From Hydractinia symbiolongicarpus (taxonomy: Eukaryota > Cnidaria > Hydrozoa > Anthoathecata > Hydractiniidae): a stretch of 64,000 bases of DNA. The translations under genes and the position numbers were made by a program. The stretch is taken from contig NC_079882.1 of the NCBI RefSeq assembly GCF_029227915.1, positions 10,726,001 through 10,790,000 on the forward strand, read 5' to 3'. This document shows, one piece after another, positions 5,564 through 38,617 of the stretch; the first letter of the stretch is position 1; every line of letters starts with the position of its first letter. The notes under the pieces are model-generated. The model was not told the DNA's origin and ran no database searches. It saw only the letters and a program-made list of their open reading frames with translations.

Positions 5564-5677
5564 AATTGTTTTACCATGATACGAAGTGTAAAAATGGTTT
5601 TAGTTTGACGTTATCAATGGAACCATGTGCTTGTTATGATCAAACATTACGTCACCAGACACCCAGTTGTGAAAATG
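5564..5677 (+). CDS. Receptor exon 1 (first visible), short Cys-rich segment
   Basis: Acceptor TTTATATTTAG and donor ATG|GTAAATG bound a 114 bp phase 1-1 exon with four cysteines (KCKNG, PCACYDQ, SCEN). Its phase matches the following LamG exon exactly. It begins mid-codon, so it is not the first coding exon. The fold is unknown; an EGF-like or disulphide-knot fragment is possible. This is the least certain exon of the gene. Confidence 0.6.
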
Positions 5678-8600
5678 GTAAATGACAACTTTCTAAATTA
5701 TTGTTCTTCGTAACCATAAAAGTTAAGACGATACTTTAAAGTTTTCGTAATTCTGTATGCATATATTATAGCAAAACTTTTAAAATAGTTGCAACTACCA
5801 TTCTATTTTTTGGGAAAATATAGTTTTAAACCATTTAAAATTCCTGTTATTTCAATGATATTCAGTGCATCCAAATCTTGTAACGAACTTTCTGGTTTGA
5901 TTTCCTATTAAGTTGAAATTAGCAACTTACGTGATTATGCTTTCCATGACAAAATTAAAACTTTGCGTTACTGGATAAGCACTGTAATAGTAACTTAAAA
6001 AGTTAAACCAAACAAAATTGTAATTTCAGGTAAAACACTGCACTTTTAACTTCTACGTTTAGCATTTGTTGGAGGTATTTTCAAAGATGCTCTTGTGTAC
6101 ATTCCATTTGACTATGAAACAGCAACACAGTCTGACAAAGGTGAATTCAGATTAACTTATCAAAGTAATGGTTATATTCGCTTGAAACCAGGACCAATGG
6201 ATTATGCAGCTTGTGTAGATAAACGGTTTTCCAACATTGGTTCTGTTGCAACTCCATGTTCCGGTGATTTTTCCACCTGCACAGAAAAATATGTGATTGG
6301 ATTTTGGTTTTATGTTTCTCATCGAGTAAATGAAATAGGACAACAAAAAGTGTTTCAATTTGGTGATATATCTATGCAGGTAACATCAAGCGAAGAAACC
6401 ATTGCTACTAAGACTAACATTCAATGGAATGGCAATATTTGCTGTTCTACAACATTACCATTAAACTCATGGATTTATGTAAACGTAGAACTAAATTCTA
6501 CACATTTAAGCATATTTTTAAATGGTGCTCCTGTTGCTAACAATGGAAATTGCAACTACCCATTTGGAAGTAACTCTGCTATAATGAAATTATCAATTGG
6601 ATCATACAGTTGTATTGATGAATTTTCAATCTTTTCATATCCCAATTCAAATTCCCGTACAGAAGTTACTTACAATTGGTACTTGTATGGTATGTGATTA
6701 TGCATGTTAAATTTTGCCTGAAAACTAATTTGATTCACGCAAATTAATAATAATTATGAATTATTGTAGTTTAGATTTTTGACATGCTTTAACTTTTTTT
6801 TATTATTTAGTTGTTTATTAATGTAAACTTATGTTACATATACTAGGAAGCACCAGCGACTACCGCAAGTATGTACAAATTAAGTTCATTGTTTCATCCA
6901 AAGATTTTTATCAACCTAATGAGGAAGAAAATTCTGAGGAAGACGATTTCATACATCAAACTGTAGACCTTATGGTGTGTTCACAATAAATTATATTTTT
7001 TGTTTGTTTTTTTGTGTATGTGTTAGTTACAATGGTCTTTTTAGTAGACAAGAAAAAAGAAATATGCTCCCTTTGCAATAATTTAGTTTAAAATATTGCT
7101 AAAAGTCTTTGATAATACCTGTTAGTACATTCGGTCAGAGGAACTGCAGTACTTGATCTTTAGCAAGTTAAGGTGTCCTACATGTCGGGTCCGCAGTGTT
7201 GGCAACGTCACACTGTTACCCAGCTATCAAATAACAAGGTAGAAAAAACTGGCTTGGGGTGGTTTGTGTCACTGATAAAATGGTAAAATGTGTTGAGTTT
7301 AGAAGTCAGGTAGAGAGAAGCTTTAAAAAGATTTGTCGAAGGTGGGAAGACAAGGTGGGAAGATAGTGATGGATATGGAGGAGTGGGCATATTTTTGGCA
7401 GAGAAATAATGAGTAAAAGACTGAATAGTGTTAATAGTCGTACTAGAGTGATTAGTTTTTTTATAGTTAGAGAATTGTCACTTTTGTTTCAATTTATTCT
7501 TTTCTGTGTGGCCTCAGTAAATCTGTATTCACATATGGAAATTTTCACGTAATGGCTGGTCTTCATTCATTCTTTTAGTTTCTTTAAAATCTTTACGTAC
7601 ATGTGACATGTTTAACGAAAAGTACATAAACCCTTCCAAAGTTTTGTTCGTGTTTAGGTAGCTTTTACAAACCAAAATTTGTGTTCTTAAAAAAGTGAGT
7701 CAGAAAAAGGAAAATATGGAAAAACTTGCGCAATTTCATTCGGTTCTGTTTTTAAATGCCTAAAATTTAAAATCTCAATCAAAACAAAAACAAAATCTAA
7801 AATGTCTTTGTATAACAGAGATAACCTCTTTCGACTGTTTTTTTTGACATGCTGTTCTTTTCGACAACAGGACTACATTCTGAATTCGCCAGAAGCCTCG
7901 CCAAATAATTTTCTACAAAAGCTAAGGAGCTTGGAAAAGTTCTCCAAAAGCTAAGGATCTTGGAAAAGTTACAATACATTGCACTCTGAATTCGCCAGAA
8001 GGCTCGCCAAATAATTTTCTCCAAAAGCTAAGGAGCTTGGAAAAGTTACGATACATTGCACGCAGCACTTTGCTGCTATTTTGAATAAACCGAAAACTAA
8101 AAGTCAAGAAGAAGTGAACTAAAGTCTATGTAACGTTAACAAAACCTCACATAAGGAGAGATTTCTACGTAAAATTTCCTGTAAGCATTTACGTAAAAAA
8201 ATGCGTACATGTTGCTGCTTGAATCCTGCTAAAAGAACACAAAATTAAGTCTAATGATAGTTTATAATGGTCACATCTAAATGCCGAGACAGTGAACTTG
8301 TCATGGTAGGTGGTGACTTCATTGGTCAGGTCATGCCTGAGAAAATGGTAGCTATGAAAGATTAAAGTTAATAAAGTAATTTTTATGTGTACTAATTTTT
8401 CTGCATCTGAAGAAAAATCTCACATAAAGAGAGATTTCTTACGCAAAATTTCCCGTTAGCCCTCACGTAAAAATCCTGTACATAAATTTGCATCAGAAAA
8501 ATGTATTAACTCTTGAACAATAGTTCAAGTATATTAATTTCCGCCCAAGTTTAAATTCTTTCGCAAATAAAATGTTTCTTTTATGTAAACTTATATATTG

Positions 8601-11600
8601 TTACTAAAATGCGCAAAAAAATTAGTGCAAATAAGCTAAAGTTTATAAACAAAAGTGATCTGTTTTTTCCCTTACAGATTTAAAAAAAGCTTTTATTAGA
8701 TATTTTGTGGTGGGTACGACCAGTGTTCATAATGGAAAAACAAACCTCTACTTCTTAACACTTTTGATATGCTTTTTTGCCAGAAACAGGGAACTTACAA
8801 CAAAAAATTTATCAATCATGTATTGTCTGCATAAGTAGTGTAATGGTATTCCACGAAGGTGAGAAGTTGACATTCTGTTTATATCTAGTTGTGCTAAAGA
8901 TGATTATAGATAACGAAGTATTTTTAAATTTAATAATGTACCTCAGCGACTTGTGGGAGATAATAGTGGGAGTAAGAGGGGTGTGGGGTGCCATTTGCAG
9001 GGTAGGTTTTGCATGGGGAAAGTTCCAAGGTAGGAAGTCATTGATAGTGAAGCAAGAATAGCTTCACTATTTAGAAAGGCATAATATGAGAATGGTTAGG
9101 TAGATGTGTAAAACACCAGTTTAAGAGACACAAGAAGTTCAGATGAGGTATAAGCATTCGAGATTCAATTCAGATAAAAATGTTAAGTTAGTTAACTAAT
9201 GGGAGAAGATGATGAAAAATAATCAGGTAAGATGGTGTAGAGGCGGTAATGGAGTAGCCAAGCAGGGAGTGGCCAAGCCCATTACCGAAAGGGACTTATC
9301 AAGAGGTAATAAGGATATACTTGCTGCAGAGGAATTCTAATTTAGACCAAACACAGTTCACATCGTATTGAAGAAAGGTCATTAATATACCCAGCCCAAC
9401 TCATGCTAGCATTAGAAAATTGTATTTTATTTAAATATTGAATGTTTCTTTCGTAAAAATAGTGATTGTAATTTTTTTCGTGTTTCAGTTAAAGGACTTC
9501 TTTCGTCAAATGAAAGACAATAGAATGAAATATATTGGTTCTAAGCCAATTGATATATTGAGGTGAGTGTTAAAAGTTTTTTTTAATATTTTTTTTCTGC
9601 TTCTATAAGCTTAAAAAGCATGAACGTTGTAGTTGGGTGAATATCCTCTTTGCTTTAGCTACCAATAATTGTAATAGCAAACATTGTCTTTTTAAGTAGC
9701 TTTTATAAATACTATATTTTGTAAATCCGTATTTTACTTTGAAAATCTACCACCAAATGATTTGTTTTCATTTGGACAATATTTAGAATTGAACCTCCTA
9801 AAACCAAAGTTTTCCTACTGGTTTCAATATCATACCTACCATATCAACTTGAAAATGCATTTTACACAATACCAATTCATCATTATGAACATAATGGCAG
9901 AGAATACTTTATCGAGAGAGAGTACGATGAAGCATCAACTATTGGAGGTAAAATCTTTTCTACATGTTTCGGTATATTAAAAGTGATATATATTTTACGG
10001 AAATACAGAAATTGGTTTTGACATTGTACTTTAATTCAATTACTAGAATATTTTTTTCTTTTGTTGAAATTTTCTTGTATAACAGTATAATTATGCTATA
10101 ATATATGCTAGCAAAAGCATACAACTTCTCTTTTGAACCATTTATGGGAAAACAACTTTAAACTTCAATTAACCACATAATAAACAACTTTTAGCGTCAA
10201 TTACTGAAAATAGTAAACAGCTCTAGAATTTTCAAGCATTAAAGTTGTTTATAAAAAAGTGTGTAAATGCGACGTTGTCATTTTCATATATTTAGTGCTG
10301 CCTACACCAGTAAATTTCACAGCTAAACCACTGAACTCATCTACTGTTAGGCTTCATATAAATAACCATGTTGAAGACGAAAGATATCATCTTGGTTTTT
10401 TTGTAAACATTACCAGCTATTTCGTAGTACATTCTTCGTCATTCCATCTTACATTTTGGAAATATTTTTATACTGGCCGATTATATCTCTACCTTGTCAA
10501 CCTTTCGCCATACAAGAAATACGAAATCACTTTATGGTCTTTAACCCACCAAGGGCTTGGACCGAGAGGAAAGCGGATTGTATACACACATATTGATGGT
10601 ATGTCATTATTTATGTTGCATTTTAAAATGTGAAAATATGTTTCTGTTGTTTTGTTATGCTATAGAAAATCTTATGTTCTCATTAATAAGATTCTAAAAT
10701 GAAGACGGATATTAGTTCTTTTCTAAGACAAATTTAGGTTTCTGTACACTTTCTTGCAAATTCGACCATAAACAACACCTGTAAATTCTATTGTCCCAAA
10801 CTGTGAAGCTAATGCATGAAAGTTCATTTGTCATCTGTGTCTGTAGATCTCGTGAACAAAGTAGAACTATTTATAATAGCAAATTATGAATCTGTTGATT
10901 TCGGTTTGCATCTTATTAACAAGCGAGCTTTTAAGATATGATCCATATACTGCAAATAGAGACGTAATTCACATTTTGTTGTGTTGTCATACTTGCATAA
11001 CCATTTGCAATTTGAGTGGCATACAGACAAGTGCATGGCTAAAAAACTAAGTTCGGAAAGTTTAAACATCTATTGTAAGACCTTTATGTCAAAAAAATTT
11101 GGAAAATTCGCCTAACCCTTTTATTAGATACACAATAAAATTTCTATATTGCTGCTACCACCTGGACTACAAAAAGTTTCTGTGTAGAGGTTCTGTTTAA
11201 ACTGGCTTATATTGCTCCAGGGGGTTCTGGTATAATGAACTTAACCGCAAAGTGTGTCAAGAGGCTGATTTAGGGGGGAAAACCCTACCTAAAAACTATA
11301 AAAATAAAACAGACTTGTTACTTCAGGGGGAAAAAACCCTACCTAAAAACTTTAAAAATAAAACAGACTTGTTACTTCACAAAAGCTTTGAGATTTTGCT
11401 TTGTCAAAACATTGCATTCAATAAAAAGATAGAAGAATTTCTTACAATGTTTTATTAAAACTAGGACCTTGATGTGAAATAAACCTACCGAGGAGTGTCT
11501 ACCATTTTTTTTGCATTTTGTTTTAGTCGTTGTTTTCGTAAGATATAATATAGATGATTTAAATTTGTCAAAAAACAAGACACTTTACACCCATTAGGTG

Positions 11601-14600
11601 GCGGTGTTGGAAGTTCTGGTGTTAGTATTTTAGCATGTTTACATGAATAACATCTTGTAAGAAAACCTATTTTCGTTAGTTTTATTTGTTCTGGTATCTC
11701 TTTAGTTAATGTGATGCCACCCCAAAATGTCCAGGCACATAACACTAGTCACACGTCAATTATGGTTGGGTGGGCGTTGTACGATAATGGAACGTATTGG
11801 AACAGCAACACTATGAACTTTAGAATTTATTGGAAAAGAACTAATTTGACCCTAAGAAGTTCTCAGTACAATTTGTTATCATGGAATTACACAGATGTAC
11901 ATTCCACTTTCAAAACATTTTCTGAGTTAAATTATGGTCCTGATGTTATAACCTCATATGAAATAACAGGTTTAGAATCTTTTACTAATTATACCATATT
12001 GGTTGCAACAGTAAACCCAGCTGGAGTTGGTGCTTTTGCTGTGACCTACTGTAGATCTAGTCAGTGGTGTAAGTATCTTGTTTTCTATAAAGGTTATATT
12101 GGAAGTTTTTAGTCACAGTTATACGGTTGTTACTTTGTCGTGTTACGACTTTACTACCTTAGGGCATACATTTTAGTGAGAACTAATTTTGGCATTATTG
12201 ATATTTGCAGCTTGGCAAATGAAAAATAAACTATGTTTGATTTGTCAAGAATTAAATGTGCGAATAGAAATTAAAATAATTTTGTAAAAAAAATGCGCGA
12301 ATCTCGTGAAAGTTTAATTTTGTGCGATTTCAAGAGAATTATTGTTTGTTTATCATAAATTTACAGGTATAATGTTCTAATAAGTAAACCTAAAATTGGA
12401 GTAAATTGGAGTTCAATTATTTTATAGTTACTTATGTTTCTTATAGTGCCAGAAGAAGCACCAAACTTATTTTTGGTAGATTTAATATCTCCTGGCGTTG
12501 TACTCATACAATTCAATTACACAGAAGACATTGAAATTTTTAACTCATGGAAAATGTCTGGCTATAACTTGACAATTGAACCATTATATCCAAGTTTGTC
12601 TCAATCAGTAGCTGTCACTTTATTGGTACCATACAAACAAAATATGTTTAATTCAACTGTCCTCGATTATTTTAACTTGTTCAAAGTAACTGCATCTGCT
12701 TTTAATGAGATTGGAAATGGGCCTAAAGCTCAAATTTGTTTTGCTACAGGACAATTTGGTAAGATGTTGTTTTTCGAAAAACTGAGTTACGTGGTTATGT
12801 GGTTTTAATTATGTTTGCCATTGTCATTGTTTTTATTGTTTTGTGCTATTTTCTTATTAGTGCCAAATCATTACCCAACTATTTCCAAGCTGATAAACAA
12901 AACACACAATTCCCTAAATATAGAATTGGGTCAAGTTCCTCTCAAGAACGAGAACGGTATAATCACCCATTATCTGATTAACTACAGATCAGCTGATTGG
13001 GAAAGTCTTTTTGTTAACGTAACAAAAAATCTCACTCATACTTCAGATGACTGGAGTTATTGGACACAAATGTCTAATGGTAATATTTCATGTTCTATTG
13101 AGCCACAACCAAATTCCTCGAAAGTAGTTGATTTCAATTTTACTGGTCTGTATCCCTTTACAAATTACGAATTTCATTTTGAATCTTGCACCGTAGTAAA
13201 TTGCTCTAACATACAACATAGTGTTGTGTTTCGAACAGCTGAGACATATCCCTCGTGTGCGCCTAACTTCACAGTGTGGAATACGTCATCGTCATCTCTG
13301 TTTATTACAATCGATCCGCTTGGACATTTTTGTATGAATGGTATTTTAAAGTTTTATCATGTCGTTTTTCTGGAGAGTGAGTTGTATGGAGAGAGTATTT
13401 ATAATTTATTACTTAATGATATTCCAAAAGAAAATGTGGCAGATTTGACTGCAAATACGCATACTGCAACAGGATTAAAGAAATATTGGAATTACACTGC
13501 TGTTGTGTATGTTGAGAACAGTATTGGTAATGGGCCACACAGTTTTAAATGGGCTGTGACTGCTCAAGATGGTAAGCTAATCCGAACTATTTTTTTTTAT
13601 CTTTTAACGTTACTTCCTTTTTCACTTATTTTTATTGGGTAAAGTTTACAGCCTGTAATTATTTCTATTTTTTGGTAGCTCCTGATGGCCCACCTACGAA
13701 CATATCCGGATATGCAAACAGTAGCAGTTCGATCATCTTAAATGTCACCTTACCTAAACGAGAACACAGAAATGGCATCATCCGTGGTTATAAGGTTCAT
13801 CTTTTGAATTTGGGTAACTTAACAGCGCATGAGTTGGTGTTTGACGTTATTGAAGAACCAGCATCCATATTAGTAGTGGAAAGTTTGAATTTTTTTACCT
13901 CGTATGAGATCAAAGTGAGAGCATATACAAAAATAGGTGACGGACCTTACACGTCTGATGCACCATTTTTATTTTTTCTCATACTAAAAACATTTGAGGA
14001 CGGTACGTATATTTATTTGTTACTTCAAATGTGCGAATTCTTAACTTTGTATTTTTTGGTTTGAAAATTTCGAAAACATAAACCCTTCTTTTAAAACAGT
14101 GCTTTCATTTTAGTTCCTACTGCTCCACCTTCAAATGTTAATGTCACATCATTAACTTCGGACAGTGTGACTGTTACATGGCAAAAAGTTCCAGGTGACT
14201 TTCAAAATGGTATTTTAAACTCGTTCCAGTTAGAAATATCTGGGATATTGGCGAATAATACGTTACATACTCTTCGACCACCTAACATCAGTTTTTTGGA
14301 TTACCTGGATGATTACAGAAGTTCCATTTCTGGTTTGTTTCCAAATACACAATATAATGTATCTGTACAAGGATGCACCACCCCCGGATGTGGAATGAGA
14401 GGTTGGTTACAGTTTACTACAGATGAAATGGGTAAGTTAACAAAAGATATTTATAGATTCTGGTTTGTAATTGAAATTTAGCTTGGCATGTATTTTGACA
14501 ATATTTATTTATTTTTATGTAGCACCCATTGGAAAAATACAGTTTCTCCAACAAATAAATATGGACATAAAAGAGAGCTTGCATTTCAATTGGTCTGATA

Positions 14601-17600
14601 TTAACCCAATGGAAAAAAGGGGAGAAATTACTTTCTTCATATCTTACGATAAACATGAAAAACCATGGGAGGAATACAATGAGTCTTCTACAACTTTCAC
14701 TGTTCCTGGTAGTCAGCTGAACGCATCGATTTACAACTTAAATAATTATACTATGTATCGAATAGAAATTTATGGTATGGGAAGAGAAGGAATTGGACCT
14801 TCAGTAACAAGTGACATGCTAACACCTGAAAATGGTAAAAACATCGCATTACTTCTTGTAGTCCCTTTTTTATTCGTATGGACTCGTAGACTTGTACTAA
14901 AGTGTTTGCTTCCAGTGTGCCAGGTTATTGTCCAGAAAATTGTTTATTAAAAAGCAGTGCAGGATTGATATCTTAGGCTGCCCAATTGATCAGTCACGCC
15001 GCTAAGGAAACCTTAAATACACTGTAACTGGTGTCTTCATTGGTAATAGTACCAGCAGAAATTGTGCAAGGAGTACTTTTCTAATAAACTACCATTTTTA
15101 GATGTTTAAACATTTAAATTAGAAACGAAAATTTTCGGACGAACAAGCTTTCGGATTTTTTTGTCCGAAAATTTTTCCGTCCGAAAGTTTTTTATCCGAA
15201 AATTTTTTTCTAATTTTGTTTAAAAAGGCCCAGTGCATAAAAATTATATATAGGTAATCAGAAAATTAAAACTGCAGTTTTTGAACTTATTATTTTCGTT
15301 ATTTTCACATTTGGCCGAGGCTCTATCTATAAAGTTGGATCCTGAACACCCTTTTTAGATCTTGATTGAATATATGTACAATTTAAATGCTTCTACCCTT
15401 TTTTTTGTGTCATTTCCCGTAATCATTACTTTTGAAATTTGGTAAAAATTCGTTCAAAAGACTTACCCATATATTTTTTTGACTTTATAAATGTTGTCCG
15501 AAAATTTTTCAGCTGAAATAAAAAATTGTGTCCGAAAGTTTTTCCGCCGAAACATTTTAGTTCTTAATGTATTCTACATACCTGTTGAGTTTCATTTTTA
15601 ATTTTACTGTTTAGTTCCATTATATTATATTAATAACAAACTATGTAACTTGATCAAATCTTATAAAAACCTTCATCCTATATGCATGTTAAGTTTAATT
15701 TTTAATGTTTAGTTCCATTATATTCTCCACAAATTACATATGCAAATAACATTAGCAGTTCAGGAATAAATGTGAAATTTACGAAACTACCTCAATCATC
15801 GTGGCAAGGTGAACTATTAGGTTACCATGTTTATTACCAACATGCAGATGGACCTACCAATTGCACTGCTGGACAAATATGTAAGAATATGGAGTTTACA
15901 GATTGCATTGGTAATGATATAAATACTTGTGATGTTACAGAACTCGATCTGCATACAAACTACAGTGTATGCATTGCTGGTTACACGAGTGCTGGAGCAG
16001 GACCAATGAGTGAATGTGTTTATGTAGTTACTGATACGTTTGGTAAGTCTAGGCTTAAGCAGCTTTTAATATCTATTTGTAGTTTACAATAGCTACTTTC
16101 AAGGACAGAAAGATTGTGCTAAGAAATGTTACTGCGAAACATAATTATTTATTCTCGCGTCTAACATCTTTAGAGGAATTTACTTTGTTTTGTTAAATAG
16201 TTGATGGTAATTGGACGGAATGGGGAACATGGGGCAACTGTGATAGGAGCTGTGCAAATGGTACTGAAGCTAGGTTACGATTTTGCATTAACCCAATACC
16301 AGCAAAAGGTGGAGCCAATTGCTCTGGCTTAGATGTTGAACGAAGACCATGTAATGATTTTCCTTGTCCAGGTTAGCCCTATACATATTTTAAGTAGTGT
16401 TCGCAAAACTTCGTCACCACATGACTATAACTAACTTGTTTTAGGTTTCTATCTTGCAAAACCCTTAACTGATTGTACAGAAACATGTGAGAATCTTGGA
16501 AGTAAATTTGCGTGCTCTAATATTATTGATACGGAGAATACAACGCATGTATTTGAAACATCTATCAGTGGATATGATTATACTGATATACAAGGCGTGA
16601 CTTGTTCTCCTGATGATTCTCAAAAGACATTTTTAAAGGAACACGATCCTTTTTTCTTTATTGATGGAAATATTTGCTCTGGATATGCACGAGTTCCTGG
16701 TCGAATCAAATGTTCTGTTGGTGGCAAGTTAAGTGAAACGATTCGACGACTCTGTTATTGCATCGATAAAGGTATTAGGAATTTTTATTATAGTTGTTGA
16801 TTTGTGTGATTGCAGGTAATTACAATACTAATTAGGACGGACCGGCTTTAATGTTATTGTTTTTTTCCGGCAGAAACAATGTCTTACACATCCTGGGCTA
16901 TATGGAGTCCTTGTTCTGTGTCTTGTGCTGGCGGATTATCACAGCGCTTTCGTACATGTTTGTTAGAAAGTGGTTGCAACAAAACACTAGATGCCAAGGA
17001 TTGCAATACACAACTGTGTCCAGGTATGTGAAAATTAATTAGTTACAAAATCATTCGTACCTATTTATCTCTATAATAATAGCCGTCGTCTGTCTGTCTC
17101 TGCGCAACATGGCGGAGCAAGTAGCGAGACCCGCCAAAAATCCCCGCGGCCCTGCAGCTTTATTTCGAATCCCCGGCAGACCCCGTTTTTTTTACCGGCC
17201 TTGCTTTGCCGCTCATTGTAATAAACCAATCACGAGGCTCCATTTTCACTAATGACCAATCCAAGTGCTTCGCGGCCTCAACATGCCGACGGGAGGAAAC
17301 ATGCTACCCCTACGAAGGCCATTTTGGTTTGGAAGTGATGGTGTGAAGTTTGTAGGTTTCCTTTCAATCCTCCTTATTTCTTCTGAGTACTTTTTATCCT
17401 ATAGGATTATTTAGTTTGTTTTCACATGTTAAGGTGAATATTTCATCACGTTTTCTAGCTACGTATAAATCTTAAACAAACCAATTTTAAGTTTTTGGCT
17501 AGCTACAAAACGTACATTTTGAGGCAGCTAGCTATAGCTAGCTTTATTTATTCCTATTCTTTTAAAGTTTTTATTCAGTTTGGTATATTGTTCTTTATTT

Positions 17601-20600: not shown

Positions 20601-23600
20601 TAGTAGACTGATTTTATTTTCCATTGCTGATTTGTCGGTGACATTTTTATTCACCGTTGGTTATAACATTAGATTAACCCTAACCCTAAGCAGGATAAAT
20701 TAAAAACAATTTCATCGCACCTTTGAATTCTAATAATTGAAAATCGAAAATCATCGTTTTTTCGTAAACGTTTTATTTTTTATATGCTTGGAATGAAATA
20801 GAAAATTGTTAAGTACAAGTATGAAGTCGTTTGTCGGTGCGTAGAAATTAGTATGTATAATTTAAACTCTAAATTTGCATGGAAATTATTATGTTCAAAA
20901 ATACGTACAAAAGTATATGGTCAGGTATTTTTTCGTTTTGACAACACTTTACCTTCTGTGAAATAACAGTGTGGAAAATAATAGATTTGTAATGATGTAA
21001 AACGTTGATTACATTCTTTTAGTGCCAAGCAACGCACCTCAGTTCACAGCAACTTCTACCGTATTTGACAGAATTTTTATCAGTTGGAAAAATGATACTG
21101 AATGGGCTATTCCAGAAGAGTTTTCAATGTATTACGTATTTTATCGTGATTTGACTGTTCCGAATGTGAATTGGACATCGCTTACTACTGTGAATAAATC
21201 TACAGAGATAACTGATCTGAAAGGTCACACTCTGTATGGGATTCGTTTGGTAGCTGGAATATCTGATGCCAATGGTATTGCATCAATGGAACTAAAGGTT
21301 CGGACAGCTGAAGGAGGTAGTTTTTTATTCTGTTTCCTTATCTTGACGTGCACAACAGGTACAACTGGAAAATAAATTTACCAAGTCCTAGAATTACCGA
21401 GCATTTTTTTCGCATTTAGTTCCATTTATCGCTCCACCAAATTTTATTTATCAAGAAATGAGCCCGACCTCAATATATTTGGAATGGGGTGAGATACCGG
21501 AAAAAGAAGTCCCAGGAACTTTGCTTGGTTATAAAATTGTTTATGGAATATTGGGTAGCAATTTAACTCGTGACACAACAACTGCAGCTAATATGTTACA
21601 AAGAACATTAAATAATTTAAAACCCGCTTCATGGTATCTTTTTACGATTTATGGTTACACTGTCGCTGGCAATGGTCCAGTTTCTTTTATTACTTTAAAA
21701 ACAGCATTTGATGGTAGGCATCTATTATTAATATCTTTGATAGTAGCAACCCTAAATATTTTCTTATCATCTCTTTTTCCGCCGTTCTCGAGTTGTTTTG
21801 AGTACTTCTTTTTACATATTTAAGCACCTGGAGTAGCTCCACCTAAGGTCGCTTGGGAAGATCGATTTTCATCATACCAGATAAAAATAACTTGGAATCC
21901 CATACCAGCAGAAGAGGAAAATGGTTATGTGGTTGGATATAAGATCAAATACGTTCTTGTACGTCAAGCAGATATAGACGTGACAGTAGGTGAGACGCCA
22001 TCAGTCAAACAAGTTGATCGTTTTACATTCTCTGCGTATATAGATGACTTATCCCCTTACTCGATGTATAAATTTGAAATCTTTGCGTTTGCTAAAGAAG
22101 GAGATGGCCCAGCTTTCACATTTACAGCTGGTATGTATGTTTTTTTCTCGTACGATGTTTTTCATCCAGTGATGATTGATCTATAGATGTCATTTAGTTT
22201 GGTTATAATTTATTCCAAGTGGTATTTTTTTTGTTGTTGTTTTTAATTTTAGCATTAATACTTGCAGCACAAAAAATACAAATGTTAAGATGTTATGCAT
22301 TTAACATTTAGAAACATGCAGATGTCCTCAAAACATTTATGCGAATTTCTATAGCTTGAAACCATACATTTATCATGATAAAAGCAAAGGCAGGGACACT
22401 CAAGGTTTTTTTCCCCAGCTATTAACAACCATATTGAAAAACGTATGCACGAATTGCAAAGCATACACTATTCCAAAAATTTACTTTGATCGAACAGTAA
22501 CTGGTCATTCTGCAGAGAAACTGAAGTCACAACACATGAAAGAAGACATCGGATCAACAGTGCAGTTAAGCATGCCCGTCTATGGCAAATTTGCAATAAG
22601 GAGATACGCTGGTATCTATCCATACATAGGTATTGTAAAAACACAAGGAAGTGCAGCTATTATGTACGATCAAAAGGTGAGAAGATATCAGATGAAAGAC
22701 TTGTTAAGAAATGTAGTTGCATCATGGACAACCGTTGCAATAATGGTACTGTTGTCCATAATATGTGGATGGTTACTATGGTTTACTGTAAGTAGTTTAT
22801 TTATACTGAAAACTCCTATATTTCAAGTCCACTTTGCATGTGTTTAACATTTTTAGGAACAATCTTCTTCCGCGAGTGATTTAACGTTGGATAACTGTTG
22901 GAGAGGAGCTTTACAAGGAATGTGGATGGCATTTATAACGATGGGAACTGTGGGGTATGAGATGATTTTCTTTCTTGTTGTGTACACTATTTAGCATAAG
23001 TTACGGAATATTTCATCAGGACTGTGATTTAATCTAGATTCACCTATGTATACACACCATCCGGATAAACTATCTGCCGCACGTAGTGTAGTGGGTTCGT
23101 CTGCGTCTCTTATTTCTAGGAGCTACCAGACAGTATGTTAGCGATGAGGAAAGTAGTTCTTCAATATGACACTGTGATTTGTTATTCTTTCTCATGGTTA
23201 TTTTAGATATGGCGATTACAATCCGAGTACGAACGCATCAAAGGCTTTATTGATATACTGGACATTGCTTGGCCTAATCATGACCAGTATTTTTATTGCA
23301 TCGATTTCAACAAATTTGGTGTCGAGCAATTTACAACAAGAAGTTATATTATATGGTGTTCAAGTATGTTCCACAATTTAATTATTTCGGCAAAAATGAA
23401 ATTACCTTAATAAATTAACAACTCAGCACATAAACGCACAAGAAACTAACATAGTTTTTTTAAAAAATCACGTTTAGGTAGCATGAAACTTAAGGCTGTT
23501 TTATTTAATATCGCAAAAAAAAGATCATAAGTTGCCTGTTTCTTAATCTCTAATCACATAAATGGCTTAAAATCAACTATAGCACCACTTCTGTTTTCTT

Positions 23601-26600
23601 TAACTGCACGAATCACTCCAGCTGCTTTCTAAATATTTGACATTGTCCTACACCCTTCGTATTTTTAAGTTTGCAATCCAGAATATGTTGAATATTTCAT
23701 TAATTCTCAAGTTATTCGTAAGGAACTACTTTGAGCAAATGTGAAGGGAGTGATATTTTGTTTTCTGATGATATTTTGTTATTTTAAGGGACGACTTGTT
23801 TTAGATGGATAGATTTTTCGGACCATGTCTGGTGCATTGAATGTCAAATCTTAGTTTTGGCATTCAATGCATCAGTTTTGCTATTTATAGATTTTACCGG
23901 AAGTATCAGCAATCATACAACGCGAGGCTGTTAACATTAGCATTCTTTCGTTGCATGTATACTTCATGGAAAGAAAGTGTTTGCGAAAAAGGCTTTCGCA
24001 GATCAGTTTTAATGCAAATTTTTTTACATTTTCCTGGAAGAACTTTTGAGCTTTCCTCTAGTTCCATCTAGATGTTATGAATTTTATGTTATAGCGAAAT
24101 TCTAATTAAAATATGTTGCGGGAAAAACTTTGTGGTTTATGACTGATCTTACTTTTTGCGGGAATAAAGCGAAAGCGCGCTTTCTTTCTTTTAGTAGATT
24201 ACACTAACAAGTCATTACTGACTTGTTGGTGAAATTTTCATACTTAATTGGCTTATTTTTTTCTGAACAAACTCGTACATGTATGGATGGTTTATACGTG
24301 TAGATTCCACACATTTTTTGGTGTCATGTATAGGAACGCTTAAGCCTAGTTCACGCCAGTGACTTCTAAATAGAAATTCACTCACTGAGGTTCGTTATTC
24401 TTTAAAACCCCTACCGCACTAAAAAGATGATATTTATTCTGATAAACTATTAACTGTCGTTCAATTATGTACAGACACTGTACTGAATTGTTAAAAAGTC
24501 TAAAAATGATGTTAGAATATGAAAAATCAAATTAGAGTTTATCTAATATTTAACACACAGTAAGGAAAGTCGTTTCATACTTTGGTTTAAACAATGCGTC
24601 CCTATAATAAGGATTCCTTTTTTCAGTCAGTACATATTTTACACCAAATCTTCGCTTAAACAGTAAATAAAATAGGCTTTGTTCAGAAATTATTAGTACG
24701 TATAATATGTTATATATTATAATAGATTATTATTATTATTGCATATAGGTTGCTGTTATTCCTGGGACTGCAGAGTATAGTTTAGCTGTTGCACGAAACG
24801 CAAAGATATACAACGTAAGTCGACCGATAGATGTATTGGAAGCTGTCAGCAAAGACATTGTTCCGATTGGTCTGCTCGATGCATACACAGCAACTAGTTA
24901 CAGTGACCACCTAAAGAAAATGACTCTTACTGTAAAGAAAATATTTGACACAAACAGTGGATATGGAACAGTGTTGTCGGGAGGCTTGGAAAGCCTTGAA
25001 GACGATGTTCGCAGTTATGTTGACGCAAATCAGGGGAGCATTAGTGCGTTCATTAGCAGTCAGACAGATGTTTTAAAAGTAGGTTCACTTTTCAAGATAT
25101 TTTTGAATTGTTTCAGATGAAGCGGTTTTGTTATTAATTTTCGAAATACTTTTGAAATAAAAAATATATGTAGAGCTTCAAGTTAGTTGATATTTCTAAC
25201 CATTGAAGTGGTTTCTCATTTCTTAAAGATACATTATACATCTATTAACCATGTCCATAATACTGTCTATACTCCTATACTGCGAAATAAAATTGTATGA
25301 AAGTATTTATTTTCTAAAAGCCAGATAAATTTCCTATCGAGTAGTGTTATTTTGCCATAAAATAACTATGAAGACGTAAAAAATTATCAAACATCTTTTT
25401 TAAGTTGCCGACACTCGAGCCTAAAAGGTATAGACATTTTTAAGCTTATTGCATAAAAACCACACTATTCAAGTCTACTCCACTAGAGTACTAAATCGGT
25501 GTCTCGGTTTTGCAATTTATGGTCTAGCCTCAAATTTATATTGAAAAGTTGATTTTCGTAATTCTCCTTTGTACTTTTTTACATTCACGGTATCATAAAA
25601 TTTTAACAATTTATTTTTCAGTAAAAACTGACACGGTTTAAAAGCTTAATTTTATCTCCATATTTATAAATGCTTGTACCTTTTAACTTAAAACGTTGTG
25701 GTGTATCAAGCAAAAAGACAATCCAGCTTCAAACTTTATAAACAAATTACAAATATTTTTCTTATCAAAAACTTATATTTTTTATTTATAAATATTCTAT
25801 AAATTATAAACTTTCCAAAGATATTGAAAGCCAAAATTTGACAAATATTTTTTTGTTATAAAGGACAGAAACAACATTTTCATGTTGTTTCAAGGCTAAT
25901 ATAGGTCTCTTGGACTACGTTCCAAGATGCGCTATTGCTTGAATAATACCAAATCTGGTTAGTATGGGAAAATCAGTTTGGTTTTGTGAACTGACAAAAC
26001 TAAAATTAAAATCGATCTAAGGATTTTGGACTTGAAAGTTATTAATGGGTCCTTTTTTTTTATTTGCAAAAGATATCAGATGGTTTTCCCGAAATAATCC
26101 AACAACACTACTTTTAAAGGGGCTACGAAACTGTTGTTGGTTCTCGGCTTTAGTGACTTGCACGAAAGTCCAGCTAATGGCGGTAGAAAGGTTTATGACC
26201 ACTGAGAACAAAACAACAACTTAAGTCATCTTAAATATCATATTGAGCATCCAAATATAACAGAAAATCAAAGAGAAGTGTCCTACACATATGGTTATGG
26301 TTATCCATGATTTATTCGATAAAAGTACTTACCTTGATTTTAACTCATACTTTCTAATAAAATAAACTTCAAACCTTTTAAACTACCTAGCTTTATCCTT
26401 TGAAATTTTGCATAGAAACGTAAGTTTATTGTCTAAGCCAGTCAAAGCAACAACAATGACTATAAAATCTCTTAAGAGGAATTAATTCCTTTCTTGAAGC
26501 TAGTAACATATTATTTTTTAACAAACACAACTCTCGTGTTGTCTCTGTTCCCTCGTCAAAGCAAACTTTTGATTAACTGATATTTAATATATTTAACAGA

Positions 26601-28905
26601 CCGTTTAAAAGAATACTGAGTGATTTTTTTTTTTTTAGAAAATAAAAATAAAAAGGTAGCAAATTCATCATAAAAAATTAATTATTCAAAAACAGGTCGT
26701 CTAGACGTCTATGTATTATTGGTAAAAAAAAGATGAACATAGAAATTTGTATCTACCCTTGCTGAAGCTTCTGATAACAATGTGTGTTGTTGGTCAAAAT
26801 CTTAATATTTTGTTTGTTTATCTGGCTAAAAACTTTATGCAATATTCCCTAAATATGTAGCTAGGAATCAAAACAAATATTTCGCAAATACAAGGCAATT
26901 GGATTATAAAAATGTCAAAAGGGGGCTTTAAAATGGCTAAAAAGGCTATGGAAGAGACTATATCCAAAGTACGATTCCGTACTCCTATTTCAGTAATATT
27001 TAGAAGTTACTAATGGTTGCATGCCCCTGAATGGAAATAATATCAAATAACGGAACCGGATATTGGATATAGAGTTACGTTCCTAGAGTTTTCAAAAAGC
27101 TGGACATGGTTTATGACTGTGATTCTAGGTACAATTATAATGGCGTTTCCGATTATAAAGCCCTCGTTGGCTCACATGCAGACAAGTACTATATATAATA
27201 TAAATAAACTGTAAAATTTATTACCATCTTTGTCGAACAGTTTAGTTGAGGAAATAAAAACTCATTTTGTTTTTTCGTTAAAAAAGCAGGAATAAAATAG
27301 ACAAGGGTTAACAATAATTCTTCGTTGCATTTATTTATGACGATGATAGATTAGAAAAAGCAGCATGAAAACAATCGTGGAGTTAGCCCTTGTTTATATG
27401 AATTAGCCCGGTTTTTTCCTAGATAAGATATTCAAAGTGGATGGCTTAATACCATACTTACTTTCTTTTAGCCCAATGCGACCCTCATAAAGACTGAATT
27501 TATTCCAAAGGATGAATTGATTGACTTCTCAATTTTGTTGTGCTATGTTTTTCTTGGTATGTGTGTCCTTGGAACTTTTGTATGGTTGTGTTGCCTTAAA
27601 AGAAGAGGAAAGAAAAAAATTCAACCTATAGGTAATATATATTCTATTCATATATACATTTTTTTCATATACATATTCATATATACGAACTCCAGATGTA
27701 AGGAACATGTAGGTTTTACAAAGGAAAGTCTTTTCCCCCTTTTTAAAGAAAAGCCTAATAACACCTTTTAATAATACAGAGTTGGCACGTCTCCTTAAAA
27801 CTTTTCGCCTCCTCAAAACTCCTCAATTCCCCTCTAAGGTCGGTTTTCCACTAGGCGGATCAAGAACGTGTGGGGCGAAGCGGGCATTGTTATTGTAACA
27901 GCCGACCTGCTTTGCGCTCCATCTATCGCTTTTTTGCAACATTTAAAAAAACTTTTGAAATAAAGGTCGAATTAAGTTGATAGATGTTTAAAAGTTTGGA
28001 CGAAAAATAAAGAAGCAAGAGCACATAAGCTAGAACTTGAGATGAAAAAACTAGGAAGAACCCTAGCTGCTCGTAGGAAAAATGAGACTATATGGCCAGC
28101 AACTTTTTTTTAACATTTCTGGACGTTACAGCGGAAGCATATAAAAAGTTTATATTTTCTCTCTGGTACACTCGTTATCATATTTTTCCAGGTTTTATCC
28201 AATATTTTGAATAAAAAATGTCTAAATATGTTCTAGTTTCGTGTTTACATCACGTATACAATTTGCTCTGATTGGATGGCGTATTTACGTATGGCATTTC
28301 GCGCGAAGCGGATCGCTTTCAGCGTAATTCTGATAGAAATAACAAAGCCGCCTCGCACAGAATAATCCACTAGTTTGAACTCGCGTAAAAGTAGATTTTG
28401 TTAACATTTTTTTAAACACAAAAATCTCCTCGAATCTCCTTAATTTCCTTTATAAATACCGTCATCTTTTTAAAAAAGTTTAAACATTGTCGTCAAAGGT
28501 CCTCAATTCCAAAATTTGACTTTATAAAAGTGGGAATACCAATGAGTTTTACGAACCTTTTTTGTGTTCGTTTAGTTTTTGCTTCCTTACTGTTCCTCTT
28601 TATTTTAGAAAATATATATTTACTATATTTCAGCTTCAAGGGATGAAATAGTTAAGAACGAATTAACACAAGATATAAATGACTTTGCGCACAATTTTAA
28701 AAGTCGTGTAGAGAAGATGGATGAAAAACATTCCAGTGAACTTTCTCGTCTGCAAGTCTTACGAACAAACTTTATGCGACTTATGAAAAGACATGGCCAT
28801 ACAGAAAAAGAAGTGAATGATCGATTTGATGCAATACGAAAAAAGAGCGTGAAAAAAATTAGAAAACATCGCAAAAGATTAAAATATTTAGAAACAAGCA
28901 TTTAA
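5564..28905 (+). CDS. Giant receptor-channel: LamG/SEA/FN3/TSP1 ectodomain fused to an iGluR-like channel with a TVGYGD filter (5' end missing)
   Basis: Thirty exons with GT-AG junctions join into about 2,595 codons with no frame conflict. Domain order by residue of the visible protein: short Cys-rich segment 1-38; laminin-G-like 39-247; SEA 248-368; FN3 x9 369-1359; TSP1 1360-1416; Cys-rich module 1417-1525; TSP1 x3 1526-1692; SEA 1693-1800; FN3 x3 1801-2098; iGluR-like S1-M1-pore-M3-S2-M4 2099-2505; basic tail 2506-2595. Almost every ectodomain exon is phase 1-1, the pattern of shuffled extracellular modules. Inferred role: a surface receptor whose adhesive ectodomain is linked to a K+-selective pore. 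S1/S2 resemble glutamate-receptor ligand domains, but the usual agonist-binding arginine appears to be absent, so the ligand is unknown. The first exon(s) with start codon and signal peptide are not visible. Introns carry several transposon insertions. The 3' exons are repeated at 31573-38617. Confidence 0.88.
6063..6689 (+). CDS. Receptor exon 2: laminin-G/concanavalin-like domain
   Basis: A single 627 bp phase 1-1 exon (acceptor TACGTTTAG, donor TATG|GTATGT). The protein has the strand pattern of LamG/pentraxin folds: the early phrase DALVYIPFDYE, then GFWFYVSHR, SWIYVNVELNSTHLSIFLNG and a closing SCIDEFSIFS. The last is typical of LamG-type domains of animal adhesion proteins, where it reads 'iDdv.if'. 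Cysteine pairs and N-glycosylation sequons (NSTH) fit an extracellular location. Likely a glycan- or protein-binding head of the ectodomain. Confidence 0.75.
6847..9947 (+). CDS. Receptor exons 3-5: SEA-like domain 1
   Basis: Exons 6847-6974, 9489-9562 and 9787-9947 have phases 1-0, 0-2 and 2-1 and together encode 121 residues: QIKFIVSSKDF..., LKDFFRQMKDN..., then TKVFLLVSISYLPYQLENAF. The SEA assignment rests partly on exon structure. The second SEA region of the same gene (19062-20173) is split by introns of the same three phases, and it has the more typical RGSVIANFTVFY strand. No G|SVVV self-cleavage site is evident in this copy. The intron 6975-9488 is long and repeat-filled. Confidence 0.6.
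7873..8060. repeat. Tandem repeat in receptor intron 3
   Basis: A unit containing 'aattcgccagaaggctcg' and 'aaaagctaaggagcttgg' occurs twice, about 110 bp apart (from about 7873 and about 7986), with a third copy of the second half in between. The minus-strand ORFs here are repeat translations, not a gene. Confidence 0.8.
8147..8475. repeat. Pair of diverged direct repeats in receptor intron 3
   Basis: The phrase CTCACATAAGGAGAGATTTC...TACGTAAAATTTCC...TTACGTAAAAA near 8147-8205 recurs as CTCACATAAAGAGAGATTTC...TACGCAAAATTTCCC...CACGTAAAAA near 8410-8472. It probably represents the ends or units of an old mobile element. No coding sequence was seen in the rest of 6975-9488. Confidence 0.55.
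10296..16042 (+). CDS. Receptor exons 6-13: nine fibronectin type III repeats
   Basis: Exons 10296-10598, 11706-12068, 12447-12758, 12861-13571, 13679-14002, 14114-14431, 14523-14834 and 15713-16042 are all phase 1-1 and each about 100 codons, except exon 9 (711 bp), which holds two repeats. Each repeat starts with a Pro-rich linker (VPTAPPSNVNV, APDGPPTN, VPEEAPN). Most show the FN3 core: Trp in strand B (SVTVTWQ), Tyr/Leu in C (GILNSFQLEI), the tyrosine-corner region (L.P.T.Y...V) and G.GP in the F-G turn (GNGP, GDGP, GIGP). Many N-X-S/T sequons support extracellular exposure. The repeats form a rod-like stalk and possible adhesion surface. Confidence 0.9.
11273..11386. repeat. Two-copy tandem repeat in receptor intron 6
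   Basis: A unit of about 57 bp (GGGGGAAAACCCTACCTAAAAACT...AACAGACTTGTTACTTCA) is present twice in a row with only small differences. The short ORF over it is not coding. Confidence 0.9.
15126..15555. repeat. Possible mobile-element remnant in receptor intron 12 with repeated TCCGAAAATTTTT words
   Basis: Between 15126 and 15200 and again between 15490 and 15555 there are clusters of TCCGAAAATTTTT / TTCGGACGAA words on both strands, enclosing about 300 bp of unrelated sequence. The arrangement suggests an insertion with repetitive ends. I could not define exact terminal inverted repeats or a target-site duplication. Confidence 0.4.
16201..16371 (+). CDS. Receptor exon 14: TSP1 repeat 1
   Basis: A 57-residue phase 1-1 exon with NWTEWGTWGNCDRSC at its start, then C-N-P-x-P, and CNDFPCP at its end. 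This is the six-cysteine thrombospondin type 1 fold with a WxxWxxW C-mannosylation-type motif. It follows the FN3 stalk directly. Confidence 0.92.
16445..16771 (+). CDS. Receptor exon 15: unassigned Cys-rich module between TSP1 repeats
   Basis: A 109-residue phase 1-1 exon. Cysteines fall as DCTETCENLG...FACSN...VTCSPDD...NICSGYA...IKCSVGG...RRLCYCID. I recall similar 'CxxxC...RLCYC' modules in unannotated extracellular proteins of cnidarians and protists, but I know no family name. It is inserted between TSP1 1 and TSP1 2, so it is probably a binding module. The conserved phase shows it is part of the gene. Confidence 0.75.
16874..18989 (+). CDS. Receptor exons 16-18: TSP1 repeats 2-4
   Basis: Exons 16874-17023, 18552-18725 and 18813-18989 (all phase 1-1) encode three TSP1 repeats: SWAIWSPCSVSCAGG, QWSAWTGFGECSKSCGLG and QWSAWSFIGLCTRPCGAG, each followed by an R.R.C / R.RYC strand and a closing CxxxxC. 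Repeat 2 lacks the central CxxP..GG.C part and is short. The 1.5 kb intron between repeats 2 and 3 is almost entirely a Helitron insertion. Confidence 0.92.
17068..18521 (+). mobile_element. Non-autonomous Helitron, about 1.45 kb, in receptor intron 16
   Basis: It begins A|TCTCTATAATAATAGCC and ends with hairpin CCCGTGGATTTTTCCACGGG (18491-18510), 7 nt later CTAG|T. These are the Helitron hallmarks: 5' TC, 3' hairpin shortly before CTRR, insertion between A and T, no target duplication. Removing it leaves a normal intron of about 75 bp. The interior holds degenerate repeats of about 150 bp ('actaagcgctta', 'gtttcctg...ttttt...gaagt') and a second 5'-end-like sequence at 18398 (TCTCTTTAATAATAGCC). 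It may therefore be a nested or chimeric copy, with a 124 bp element at 18398-18521. No Rep/helicase ORF is present. Confidence 0.75.
19062..20173 (+). CDS. Receptor exons 19-21: SEA domain 2
   Basis: Exons 19062-19171, 19246-19316 and 20031-20173 (phases 1-0, 0-2, 2-1) encode 108 residues. The order fits a SEA fold: a first strand (NFLIKMTNETW), a helix (KVRSHLINEVMAVM), then a typical second-half strand RGSVIANFTVFYHG and a helix ending LILQNAIDDIG. SEA domains often sit next to the membrane and may autocleave; the canonical GSVVV site is not strict here (GSVIA). It separates the TSP1 block from the juxtamembrane FN3 repeats. Confidence 0.75.
19336..19396. repeat. Two-copy tandem repeat (about 31 bp) in receptor intron 20
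   Basis: TATAGAACGCCAAAGCTGGC followed by ATAATTAAA occurs twice back to back. It contains the near-palindrome GCCAAAGCTGGC. Confidence 0.85.
20482..20645 (+). repeat. Dispersed repeat copy A in receptor intron 21
   Basis: The stretch TTTTATGTTATAGCGAAATTCT...TTGCGGGAATGAAGC...CGCTTTTAGTAGA...GCTGATTTGTCGGTGA is a diverged copy of 24071-24235 (and of its duplicate at 33783-33947). It is an unclassified interspersed repeat. The rest of intron 21 holds nothing I recognise. Confidence 0.65.
21023..22130 (+). CDS. Receptor exons 22-24: three juxtamembrane FN3 repeats
   Basis: Exons 21023-21316, 21420-21713 and 21825-22130, all phase 1-1. Openings are VPSNAPQF, VPFIAPPNF and APGVAPPKV. B-strand Trp residues are seen in RIFISWKND, SIYLEWGEI and QIKITWNPI, with late turns VAGNGP and EGDGP. 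Exon 24 contains the left breakpoint of the 9.7 kb tandem duplication (21861), 36 bp after its start, so the duplicated copy of this exon lacks its acceptor and first 12 codons. Confidence 0.9.
22312..27631 (+). CDS. Receptor exons 25-29: iGluR-like channel core with K+-channel selectivity filter
   Basis: Exons 22312-22787, 22857-22954, 23207-23363, 24749-25078 and 27472-27631. S1 has GFFPQLL and a region alignable with iGluR 'DIA..PLT...R' (DIGSTVQLSMPVYGKF). The transport-type Arg position falls on Tyr. M1 is TVAIMVLLSIICGWLLWF. The pore loop reads GMWMAFITMGTVGYGDYNP, matching classical K+ channel P-loops. M3 is LLIYWTLLGLIMTSIFIAS followed by ISTNLVSSN. S2 has VIPGTAEY, VLEAVSK, LLDAYTATSY (the Asp is in the place of the agonist amine-binding acid of iGluRs) and GYGTVL. 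M4 is FSILLCYVFLGMCVLGTFVW followed by KRRGKKK. The order equals that of iGluRs and of K+-selective GluR0. The filter codons are split by an intron (TVG|YGD). Confidence 0.9.
24071..24235 (+). repeat. Dispersed repeat copy B in receptor intron 27
   Basis: A diverged copy of 20482-20645 with the shared words TTTTATGTTATAGCGAAATTCTA, GCGGGAATAAAGC, TTTTAGTAGATT and GACTTGTTGGTGA. Duplicated again at 33783-33947. Intron 27 (23364-24748) otherwise shows nothing I recognise. Confidence 0.65.
26654..26714. repeat. Short dispersed repeat with AGACGTCT palindrome
   Basis: TAGCAAATTCATCATAAAAAATTAATTATTCAAAAACAGGTCGTCTAGACGTCTATGT matches 43832-43887 with few changes and is duplicated at about 36366-36426. 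Probably a fragment of an interspersed element. The remainder of intron 28 (25079-27471) holds only the pseudogene-like frame noted separately. Confidence 0.7.
26912..27214 (+). pseudogene. Intronic 101-codon frame with two in-frame stops, possible retropseudogene of a small membrane protein
   Basis: One frame starts at an ATG (MSKGGFKMAKK), runs to TAA at 27212-27214 and is interrupted only by two TAA codons at about codons 34 and 43. The last half reads like real protein: EPDIGYRVTFLEFSKSW, then a hydrophobic segment WFMTVILGTIIMAFPIIKP. A basic N-terminus with one membrane span resembles small mitochondrial inner-membrane subunits, but I cannot name a family. It lies in the sense direction inside receptor intron 28 with no splice sites of its own. 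A chance frame is possible. Confidence 0.35.
28634..28905 (+). CDS. Receptor exon 30: cytoplasmic basic coiled-coil-like tail and stop
   Basis: The acceptor TACTATATTTCAG leads into 90 codons ending in TAA. The tail is highly charged and helical, with regularly spaced Leu/Ile/Phe (SELSRLQVLRTNFMRLMKR) and a very basic end (KKSVKKIRKHRKRLKYLE). It fits an intracellular assembly or trafficking helix after M4. No PDZ ligand is evident at the C-terminus (ETSI is only weakly PDZ-like). Confidence 0.85.
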
Positions 28906-29129: not shown

Positions 29130-29135
29130 AATAAA
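29130..29135 (+). terminator. AATAAA polyadenylation signal for the receptor
   Basis: AATAAA lies about 225 bp after the stop codon in a T-rich 3' UTR, the first good signal after the tail exon. Its duplicate is at 38842-38847. Confidence 0.6.
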
Positions 29136-37500: not shown

Positions 37501-38617
37501 GTCTCCTTAAAACTTTTCGCCTCCTCAAAACTCCTCAATTCCCCTCTAAGGTCGGTTTTCCACTAGGCGGATCAAGAACGTGTGGGGCGAAGCGGGCATT
37601 GTTATTGTAACAGCCGACCTGCTTTGCGCTCCATCTATCGCTTTTTTGCAACATTTAAAAAAACTTTTGAAATAAAGGTCGAATTAAGTTGATAGATGTT
37701 TAAAAGTTTGGACGAAAAATAAAGAAGCAAGAGCACATAAGCTAGAACTTGAGATGAAAAAACTAGGAAGAACCCTAGCTGCTCGTAGGAAAAATGAGAC
37801 TATATGGCCAGCAACTTTTTTTTAACATTTCTGGACGTTACAGCGGAAGCATATAAAAAGTTTATATTTTCTCTCTGGTACACTCGTTATCATATTTTTC
37901 CAGGTTTTATCCAATATTTTGAATAAAAAATGTCTAAATATGTTCTAGTTTCGTGTTTACATCACGTATACAATTTGCTCTGATTGGATGGCGTATTTAC
38001 GTATGGCATTTCGCGCGAAGCGGATCGCTTTCAGCGTAATTCTGATAGAAATAACAAAGCCGCCTCGCACAGAATAATCCACTAGTTTGAACTCGCGTAA
38101 AAGTAGATTTTGTTAACATTTTTTTAAACACAAAAATCTCCTCGAATCTCCTTAATTTCCTTTATAAATACCGTCATCTTTTTAAAAAAGTTTAAACATT
38201 GTCGTCAAAGGTCCTCAATTCCAAAATTTGACTTTATAAAAGTGGGAATACCAATGAGTTTTACGAACCTTTTTTGTGTTCGTTTAGTTTTTGCTTCCTT
38301 ACTGTTCCTCTTTATTTTAGAAAATATATATTTACTATATTTCAGCTTCAAGGGATGAAATAGTTAAGAACGAATTAACACAAGATATAAATGACTTTGC
38401 GCACAATTTTAAAAGTCGTGTAGAGAAGATGGATGAAAAACATTCCAGTGAACTTTCTCGTCTGCAAGTCTTACGAACAAACTTTATGCGACTTATGAAA
38501 AGACATGGCCATACAGAAAAAGAAGTGAATGATCGATTTGATGCAATACGAAAAAAGAGCGTGAAAAAAATTAGAAAACATCGCAAAAGATTAAAATATT
38601 TAGAAACAAGCATTTAA
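31573..38617 (+). pseudogene. Headless copy of the receptor channel exons
   Basis: Contains the last 270 bp of exon 24 (31573-31842, no acceptor) and intact exons 25-30 at 32024-32499, 32569-32666, 32919-33075, 34461-34790, 37184-37343 and 38346-38617, with stop and poly(A) signal. It lacks all other ectodomain exons, a start codon, a signal peptide and any recognised promoter. All splice sites of exons 25-30 are intact. It would be expressed only if a new promoter lies in the copied 3' flank (28906-31572) or by read-through from copy 1 with trans-unit splicing. If the duplication is an assembly error, this feature does not exist. Confidence 0.8.
36624..36926 (+). pseudogene. Second copy of the intronic 101-codon broken frame
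   Basis: Identical to 26912-27214 through the tandem duplication, with the same two in-frame TAA codons. Confidence 0.35.

Follow-up and report, generated by a model that had tools for sequence, protein, structure and literature searches.

The gene described here, at positions 5564..28905 on the + strand of a 64,000-nucleotide stretch of the Hydractinia symbiolongicarpus genome (contig NC_079882.1; hereafter the window), appears to encode a subunit of a K+-selective channel related to the ionotropic glutamate receptors (iGluRs), in which a rod of adhesion modules stands in place of the amino-terminal domain (ATD) and gates the pore. From the sequence and predicted models, we put the probability of this reading at about one half. 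The fusion at the DNA level, the core fold, the filter, the distribution of the family, a cysteine motif and the loss of a ligand-site Arg are each supported by sequence or model. The homologues point to an undescribed cnidarian receptor family with members in corals, anemones and jellyfish which, judging by its sequences, is built from a conserved channel core and a shuffled ectodomain. We do not class the protein as a glutamate receptor, because the S1 Arg is not a feature of this family and no ATD was found.

Exon borders were set manually, guided by splice sites and the reading frame. The model has 30 exons, with an acceptor AG at 30/30 and a donor GT at 29/29 borders, and its 2,595 codons run without an internal stop to a TAA. 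Together with a paralogue that contains both halves, the open frame and the splice sites bear out the original prediction that a single gene fuses an adhesion ectodomain to a channel, and the 2,098 residues upstream of the core agree with the roughly 2,100 given there. Exon 25 was likewise correctly described as entering in phase 1 and leaving in phase 0 within M1 (near its end). The statement that all phases are 1-1 up to exon 25 has to be corrected: this is true of 18 of exons 1-24, and the exceptions, exons 3-5 and 19-21, are two triplets with the identical series 1-0, 0-2, 2-1. Chance chaining of open reading frames (ORFs) was ruled out by the domains, the splice sites and the homologues. 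The true N terminus is absent from the model and would lie in one or more earlier exons: exon 1 enters in phase 1, nothing resembling a signal peptide comes after its sole Met (LSMEPC), and scanning of positions 2500-5563 found no signal-peptide exon at the thresholds used. The parts of the gene are as follows.

5564..5677, +, exon 1, phase 1-1, contains Cys
6063..6689, +, exon 2, probable lectin domain of LamG/ConA-like type (below the Pfam cut-off, Laminin_G_3 1.8e-4)
6847-6974, 9489-9562, 9787-9947, +, exons 3-5, degenerate SEA-like domain (Pfam SEA below cut-off; phases as in exons 19-21)
10296..16042, +, exons 6-13, N-terminal FN3 rod; exon 9 apparently holds two FN3
16201..16371, +, exon 14, TSP1 repeat 1
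16445..16771, +, exon 15, Cys-rich segment
16874-17023, 18552-18725, 18813-18989, +, exons 16-18, TSP1 repeats 2-4
19062-19171, 19246-19316, 20031-20173, +, exons 19-21, probable SEA domain with a putative self-cleavage site, GSVIA, where exon 21 begins
21023..22130, +, exons 22-24, the three FN3 domains nearest the membrane
22312..22787, +, exon 25, ETCRC...CxxC motif, S1 lobe and the greater part of M1 (enters in phase 1, leaves in phase 0)
22857..22954, +, exon 26, pore helix with the N-terminal half of the K+ filter (TMGTVG)
23207..23363, +, exon 27, remaining half of the filter (GYGD), then M3
24749..25078, +, exon 28, S2 lobe, which carries the conserved acid (LLDAY)
27472..27631, +, exon 29, last part of S2, then M4
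28634..28905, +, exon 30, predicted helical cytoplasmic tail and stop codon

The channel core had been predicted to be iGluR-like with a K+ filter, and both parts of this held. The core matched Pfam Ion_trans_2 above the cut-off (E 2e-11), and its filter, ITMGTVGYGD, which is interrupted by the exon 26/27 intron, has a TVGYGD that is invariant in 26/26 aligned rows; the TVGYG-type filter and pore helix of the K+ channel pore family are thus present. Three hydrophobic stretches and a P helix at 195-211 are predicted, which would give a membrane plan of M1, re-entrant P, M3 and M4, with M4 seen both as a hydrophobic stretch and in the predicted model. Absence of an S1/S2 clamshell had been named as a result that would speak against the idea. 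Structure prediction returned a clamshell split by the pore and modelled with high local confidence, and core model residues 24-376 match the ligand cores of GluR0 and AvGluR1. The kinship of the core with iGluRs rests on this fold comparison and on the core profile, which matched bacterial-type channels with a ligand-binding domain (LBD) at 1.7e-29 to 3.2e-21, ahead of plant two-pore-type matches from 2.3e-18. An ordinary K+ channel with adhesion modules was ruled out by these profile matches and the clamshell model, and an ordinary metazoan iGluR by the K+ filter and the missing ATD. By analogy with the family, the core would be K+ selective and tetrameric, with the topology given below.

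In the ectodomain, ten stretches of the 2,595-residue protein matched Pfam fn3 (E 5.7e-65) and four matched TSP_1 (E 5.8e-29), both above the cut-off; Laminin_G_3 and SEA (E 0.0035) were below it. The best SEA stretch, 255-323, is the domain of exons 3-5, which is degenerate and has no GSV-type site, and the domain of exons 19-21 carries SRGSVIANF, with its own Pfam score below the cut-off. That the two triplets share a phase series is an argument for SEA in both. The seeds of our SEA profile were the domain of exons 19-21, whose own match is therefore by construction, a Clytia domain and that of Nematostella P0006, which passes the Pfam SEA cut-off and has GSVVV. In a search of 12 sequences, the profile found the domain in 8/12 fused proteins, namely the three seeds, the close paralogue P0001, P0007 (9.6e-13), P0003 (3.4e-10), P0008 (2.1e-5) and P0004 (3.8e-5). 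Independent support comes from P0003, in which the profile match (2454-2546) overlaps a Pfam SEA match (2450-2515), the latter below the cut-off. The GSV motif is retained in six of the eight (the window protein, P0001, P0002, P0006, P0003 and P0007). The view that FN3/TSP1 rods replace the ATD was upheld, as there is no Pfam match to a periplasmic-binding-protein (PBP)-like ATD in the 2,595 residues of the model, which is without the earlier exon(s). Exon 15 (16445-16771), Cys-rich and lying between TSP1 repeats, has no listed Pfam match and is present in Clytia and the paralogue.

Homologues were sought with the full-length protein, among proteins of 0.55-1.75x its length clustered at 90%, and with the core. 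Of the 11 matches in the former search, 10 were fused proteins from cnidarians; the other, P0011 (2,116 aa, E 5.6e-4, with a CNG-like domain and four pore matches), matched in the pore alone and was set aside. The core search, which scored the 7,992 candidates sharing most words, gave 14 matches: LOC130655034, two Acropora proteins, one standalone form and ten bacterial-type channels. The best 120 of 149 matches in the profile search were two Hydra standalone isoforms, standalone P0028 and bacterial-type LBD channels, followed by plant two-pore and other K+ channels. The co-occurrence of adhesion modules with an iGluR-like core that the original prediction had looked for among homologues was found, with an adhesion ectodomain before the core in 11/11 long homologues recovered; in 10 of these, FN3 leads into ETCRC (in two of them STCAC or STCRC), and Rhopilema has EGF instead. 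The Hydractinia paralogue LOC130655123 (isoform X2, 2,417 aa) carries ectodomain and core in one protein, with 78.7% identity over 1,924 aligned ectodomain positions and 83% in the core, and is without the FN3 of exon 23. FN3 and TSP1 make up the ectodomains in Hydractinia, Clytia and Nematostella LOC5496379. FN3 is combined with fibrinogen-C, F5/8, C-type lectin, MAM and FN2 in Nematostella LOC5521276, with F5/8, MAM and TLD in Oculina P0004, and with lectin and F5/8 in Montipora and Oculina P0010 (domains of P0007, P0008 and P0014 were taken from precomputed annotations).

In a tree of 25 cores, the 12 fused cores fell on one side of a branch with support 99/97, three standalone forms on one side of a branch with 96/92, and the bacterial-type rows at 100/100. 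The tree left out P0020 (a truncated Acropora model), P0027 (the second Hydra isoform) and metazoan iGluR sequences, and a composition warning applied to P0013 and five bacterial-type rows. From these sequences, one fusion with later shuffling of the ectodomain is the simplest account; a possible alternative is repeated replacement of the ectodomain ahead of a conserved ETCRC join. The K+-filter iGluR-like core is found in all 11 of the long homologues from cnidarians, and standalone forms have it too, one of them a named protein of Hydra. Because hydrozoan, scyphozoan and anthozoan members share it, the ancestor of cnidarians probably had such a core already, and its origin may be earlier; the K+ filter may be either ancestral or regained.

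The protein can be compared with several known systems. Metazoan AMPA, NMDA and delta iGluRs have a non-K+ pore and a PBP-like ATD, and resemble the window core in whole-chain Foldseek matches and in having M4. Adhesion G protein-coupled receptors (GPCRs), SEA mucins and other self-cleaving adhesion receptors resemble the window protein in that a long adhesion ectodomain includes, close to the membrane, a module for self-cleavage (putative in the window protein); the window protein differs in that its output would be an ion channel and its module is probably SEA. GluR0 and the bacterial Group 1 K+-filter glutamate receptors have no adhesion ectodomain, and GluR0 is described in PMC11479355 as lacking M4 and an ATD. 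The "no M4" feature of the GluR0-like Group 1 does not apply here, where M4 is predicted. AvGluR1, from the rotifer Adineta vaga, has a eukaryotic iGluR architecture, with no adhesion rod mentioned in the available part of PMC12332018, and according to PDB entry titles its structures were solved with phenylalanine, serine and glutamate. The standalone relatives, Hydra LOC105845103 (P0026; a 413-aa K+-filter iGluR-like core with a signal-like N terminus), P0013 and P0028, begin with a signal-like stretch and share the core, TVGYGD and an M4-like C-terminal stretch with the fused family, but have no ectodomain, no ETCRC clasp and no acid at the aligned S2 column.

We propose the following mechanism. 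The subunit would run from an outside S1 through M1, a re-entrant loop and M3 to an outside S2 and M4, four subunits forming an inverted K+ pore. The rod of LamG, SEA, FN3 and TSP1 modules would bind the matrix or a neighbouring surface, and the juxtamembrane FN3 stack would be linked to S1 through a conserved four-cysteine clasp. This clasp, a putative disulfide one, is our reading of the ETCRC and CxxC motifs common to the fused proteins at the entry of S1: among the 11 fused rows of alignment A2 (P0020 and P0001 left out), all 11 have both CxxC cysteines and the second one of CRC, and 10 have the first one of CRC, the Cys of P0013 behind an "invariant" C5 not being counted, as it sits in the signal-like N terminus. 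Movement or occupancy of the ectodomain might then bias clamshell closure, so that M3 is pulled and the pore opens, with K+ efflux and hyperpolarisation of the cell. SEA lies ahead of the last three FN3 and, by family analogy, may cut itself, giving a two-chain receptor. That contact or load is the gating stimulus is something we can only infer. In its full form, cnidarian adhesion channels in which shuffled, partly SEA-cleaved ectodomains directly gate the inverted K+-selective iGluR-like pore, so that contact hyperpolarises the cell, the proposal is tentative and rather unlikely to hold in every part. A glutamate-regulated K+ channel was obtained when a viral K+ pore replaced the membrane domain of GluA1, as reported in PMC12332018, suggesting that coupling of a clamshell to a K+ pore is workable.

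Several observations, set out in this and the next three paragraphs, weigh against gating by the rod or against the fusion itself. The profile search did not find SEA in 4/12 fused proteins, and P0008 and P0004 have SEA without the GSV motif, which means that SEA cleavage is not essential to the family. The standalone relatives in Hydra indicate that the core can do without the rod.

A less probable but serious alternative is that the clamshell responds to a small soluble ligand, which might be an amine lacking an alpha-carboxylate, while the rod just positions the channel at contacts or in the matrix. In iGluRs, the S1 Arg anchors the carboxylate of the agonist and the S2 acid contacts its amino group. 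The S2 acid is kept as D in 11/12 and E in 1/12 fused proteins, as it is (D) in 10/10 bacterial-type rows, suggesting that the cleft has kept some binding role and does more than couple; an FPVYG-like S1 motif recurs across the fused family; the clamshell is modelled with high local confidence; and the modules swap around a constant core, which is what an address-tag role of the rod would predict. However, the Arg, invariant in 10/10 bacterial-type rows, is unconserved here. In the 12 cnidarian rows, the residues at its column are R,K,H,H,L,V,T,S,A,E,S,E (R in 1/12), although the profile alignment behind this column has a gap close by, and the position could be wrong by one or two residues; even the two Hydractinia paralogues differ (R in the window protein, K in the other). 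At the S2-acid column, K, K, K and P are found in the four standalone rows, each of which does have a D two residues further along. The S1 region of standalone and bacterial rows aligned poorly in A1 and A4, and the S1 columns of A4 (from which P0020 was left out) were for this reason kept out of residue claims. The clamshell is probably no longer mainly an alpha-amino-acid sensor. As the mover of the clamshell we favour the rod, through the clasp; a soluble ligand without a carboxylate comes second, and stays close because the S2 acid is kept.

That the clamshell is degenerate and the protein a K+ leak channel, open constitutively or regulated in another way and held in place by the adhesion modules, seems improbable. 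The loss of the Arg anchor would fit it, as would the Pfam result, in which Lig_chan (E 6.7e-4) fell below the cut-off that Ion_trans_2 passed. PDB sequence searches point the same way: the best 60 of 230 and the best 60 of 482 matches were K+-channel-type pores with no iGluR, the same matches also including a "Transporter" and an Ion transport 2/NaV entry. The pTM of the predicted models was just 0.50 and 0.58, and Foldseek whole-chain TM-scores by query were about 0.3-0.4, so that the orientation of the domains is not fixed. Against a leak channel, the clamshell columns, the S2 acid, the cysteine motif and M3 are common to hydrozoan, scyphozoan and anthozoan members.

The last alternative concerns the locus, where an exact copy follows the gene.

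31573..41285, +, exact tandem copy of 21861-31573 (9.7 kb, introns and flanks included, 0 mismatches), with exons 25-30 repeated at 32024-38617

The breakpoint lies inside exon 24, leaving a second channel half without an ectodomain, and the perfect identity of the copies suggests either a very recent duplication or an assembly error. The NCBI model LOC130655034 (519 residues) consists of the 497-residue core and the last 22 residues of exon 24, beginning at a Met inside this exon, a start which resembles the evidence that the original prediction had named as refuting the fusion. Exon 24 has no other Met than the one at which this model starts, so it most likely models the truncated second copy. 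A short reverse-transcriptase-like fragment (RVT_1, 29255-29491, +, E 0.0026, below cut-off) also lies in the duplicated unit. That ectodomain and channel are two genes or transcripts, the fusion being a reading artefact or the locus being mis-assembled around the duplication, would suit the start of LOC130655034, the repeat beginning in exon 24 and the full-length search, in which no protein had exactly this ectodomain and core, but is very improbable, given that the frame runs on across the exon 24/25 intron, LOC130655123 contains both halves, FN3 leads into the ETCRC-type motif in all but one of the long homologues, and the 519-residue model fits the truncated copy.

The architecture had been predicted to be new, and an adhesion ectodomain with a K+-filter iGluR core was not found in the open-licence PMC literature searched, which is not proof of absence; the combination of iGluR, cnidarian, FN3 and potassium returned 0 papers. 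In the parts of the sources available, an LBD with a K+ filter was held to be bacterial only as of 2010 (PMC2950845), AvGluR1 is cited as the eukaryotic case (PMC12332018, PMC11479355) and is the one animal K+-filter iGluR that we found, and two metazoan iGluR phylogenies (PMC12226733, PMC6307864) gave nothing on such a fusion for the terms searched, PMC6307864 having no match for potassium, fibronectin, selectivity filter or GluR0. The novel anthozoan TSP1 architectures listed in the available text of PMC5446238 involve astacin, VWA, trypsin, ShK and Ig, with no channel named there, and iGluR Gene Ontology terms are reported as enriched in Hydractinia neuron type B in a passage of PMC12464821 that does not name the genes.

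The interchangeable adhesion modules in place of the ATD suggest a route from cell contact to membrane potential. We know of no counterpart for such a route. If true, contact with matrix, tissue, prey or another colony would hyperpolarise the cell, making the protein an ion-channel counterpart of the adhesion GPCRs in animals whose behaviour is rich in contact (cnidocyte discharge, settlement, colony contact). With both Hydractinia and Nematostella in laboratory use, the proposal is directly testable.

Elsewhere in the window, a long (TA)n microsatellite at about 3040-3540 separates upstream minus-strand ORFs from the adhesion-channel gene. Polyproline ORFs on the - strand at 54071-55787 contain repeated C-x3-C-x3-C-x3-C-x3-CC-like motifs, which resemble the cysteine domains of nematocyst minicollagen or CPP.
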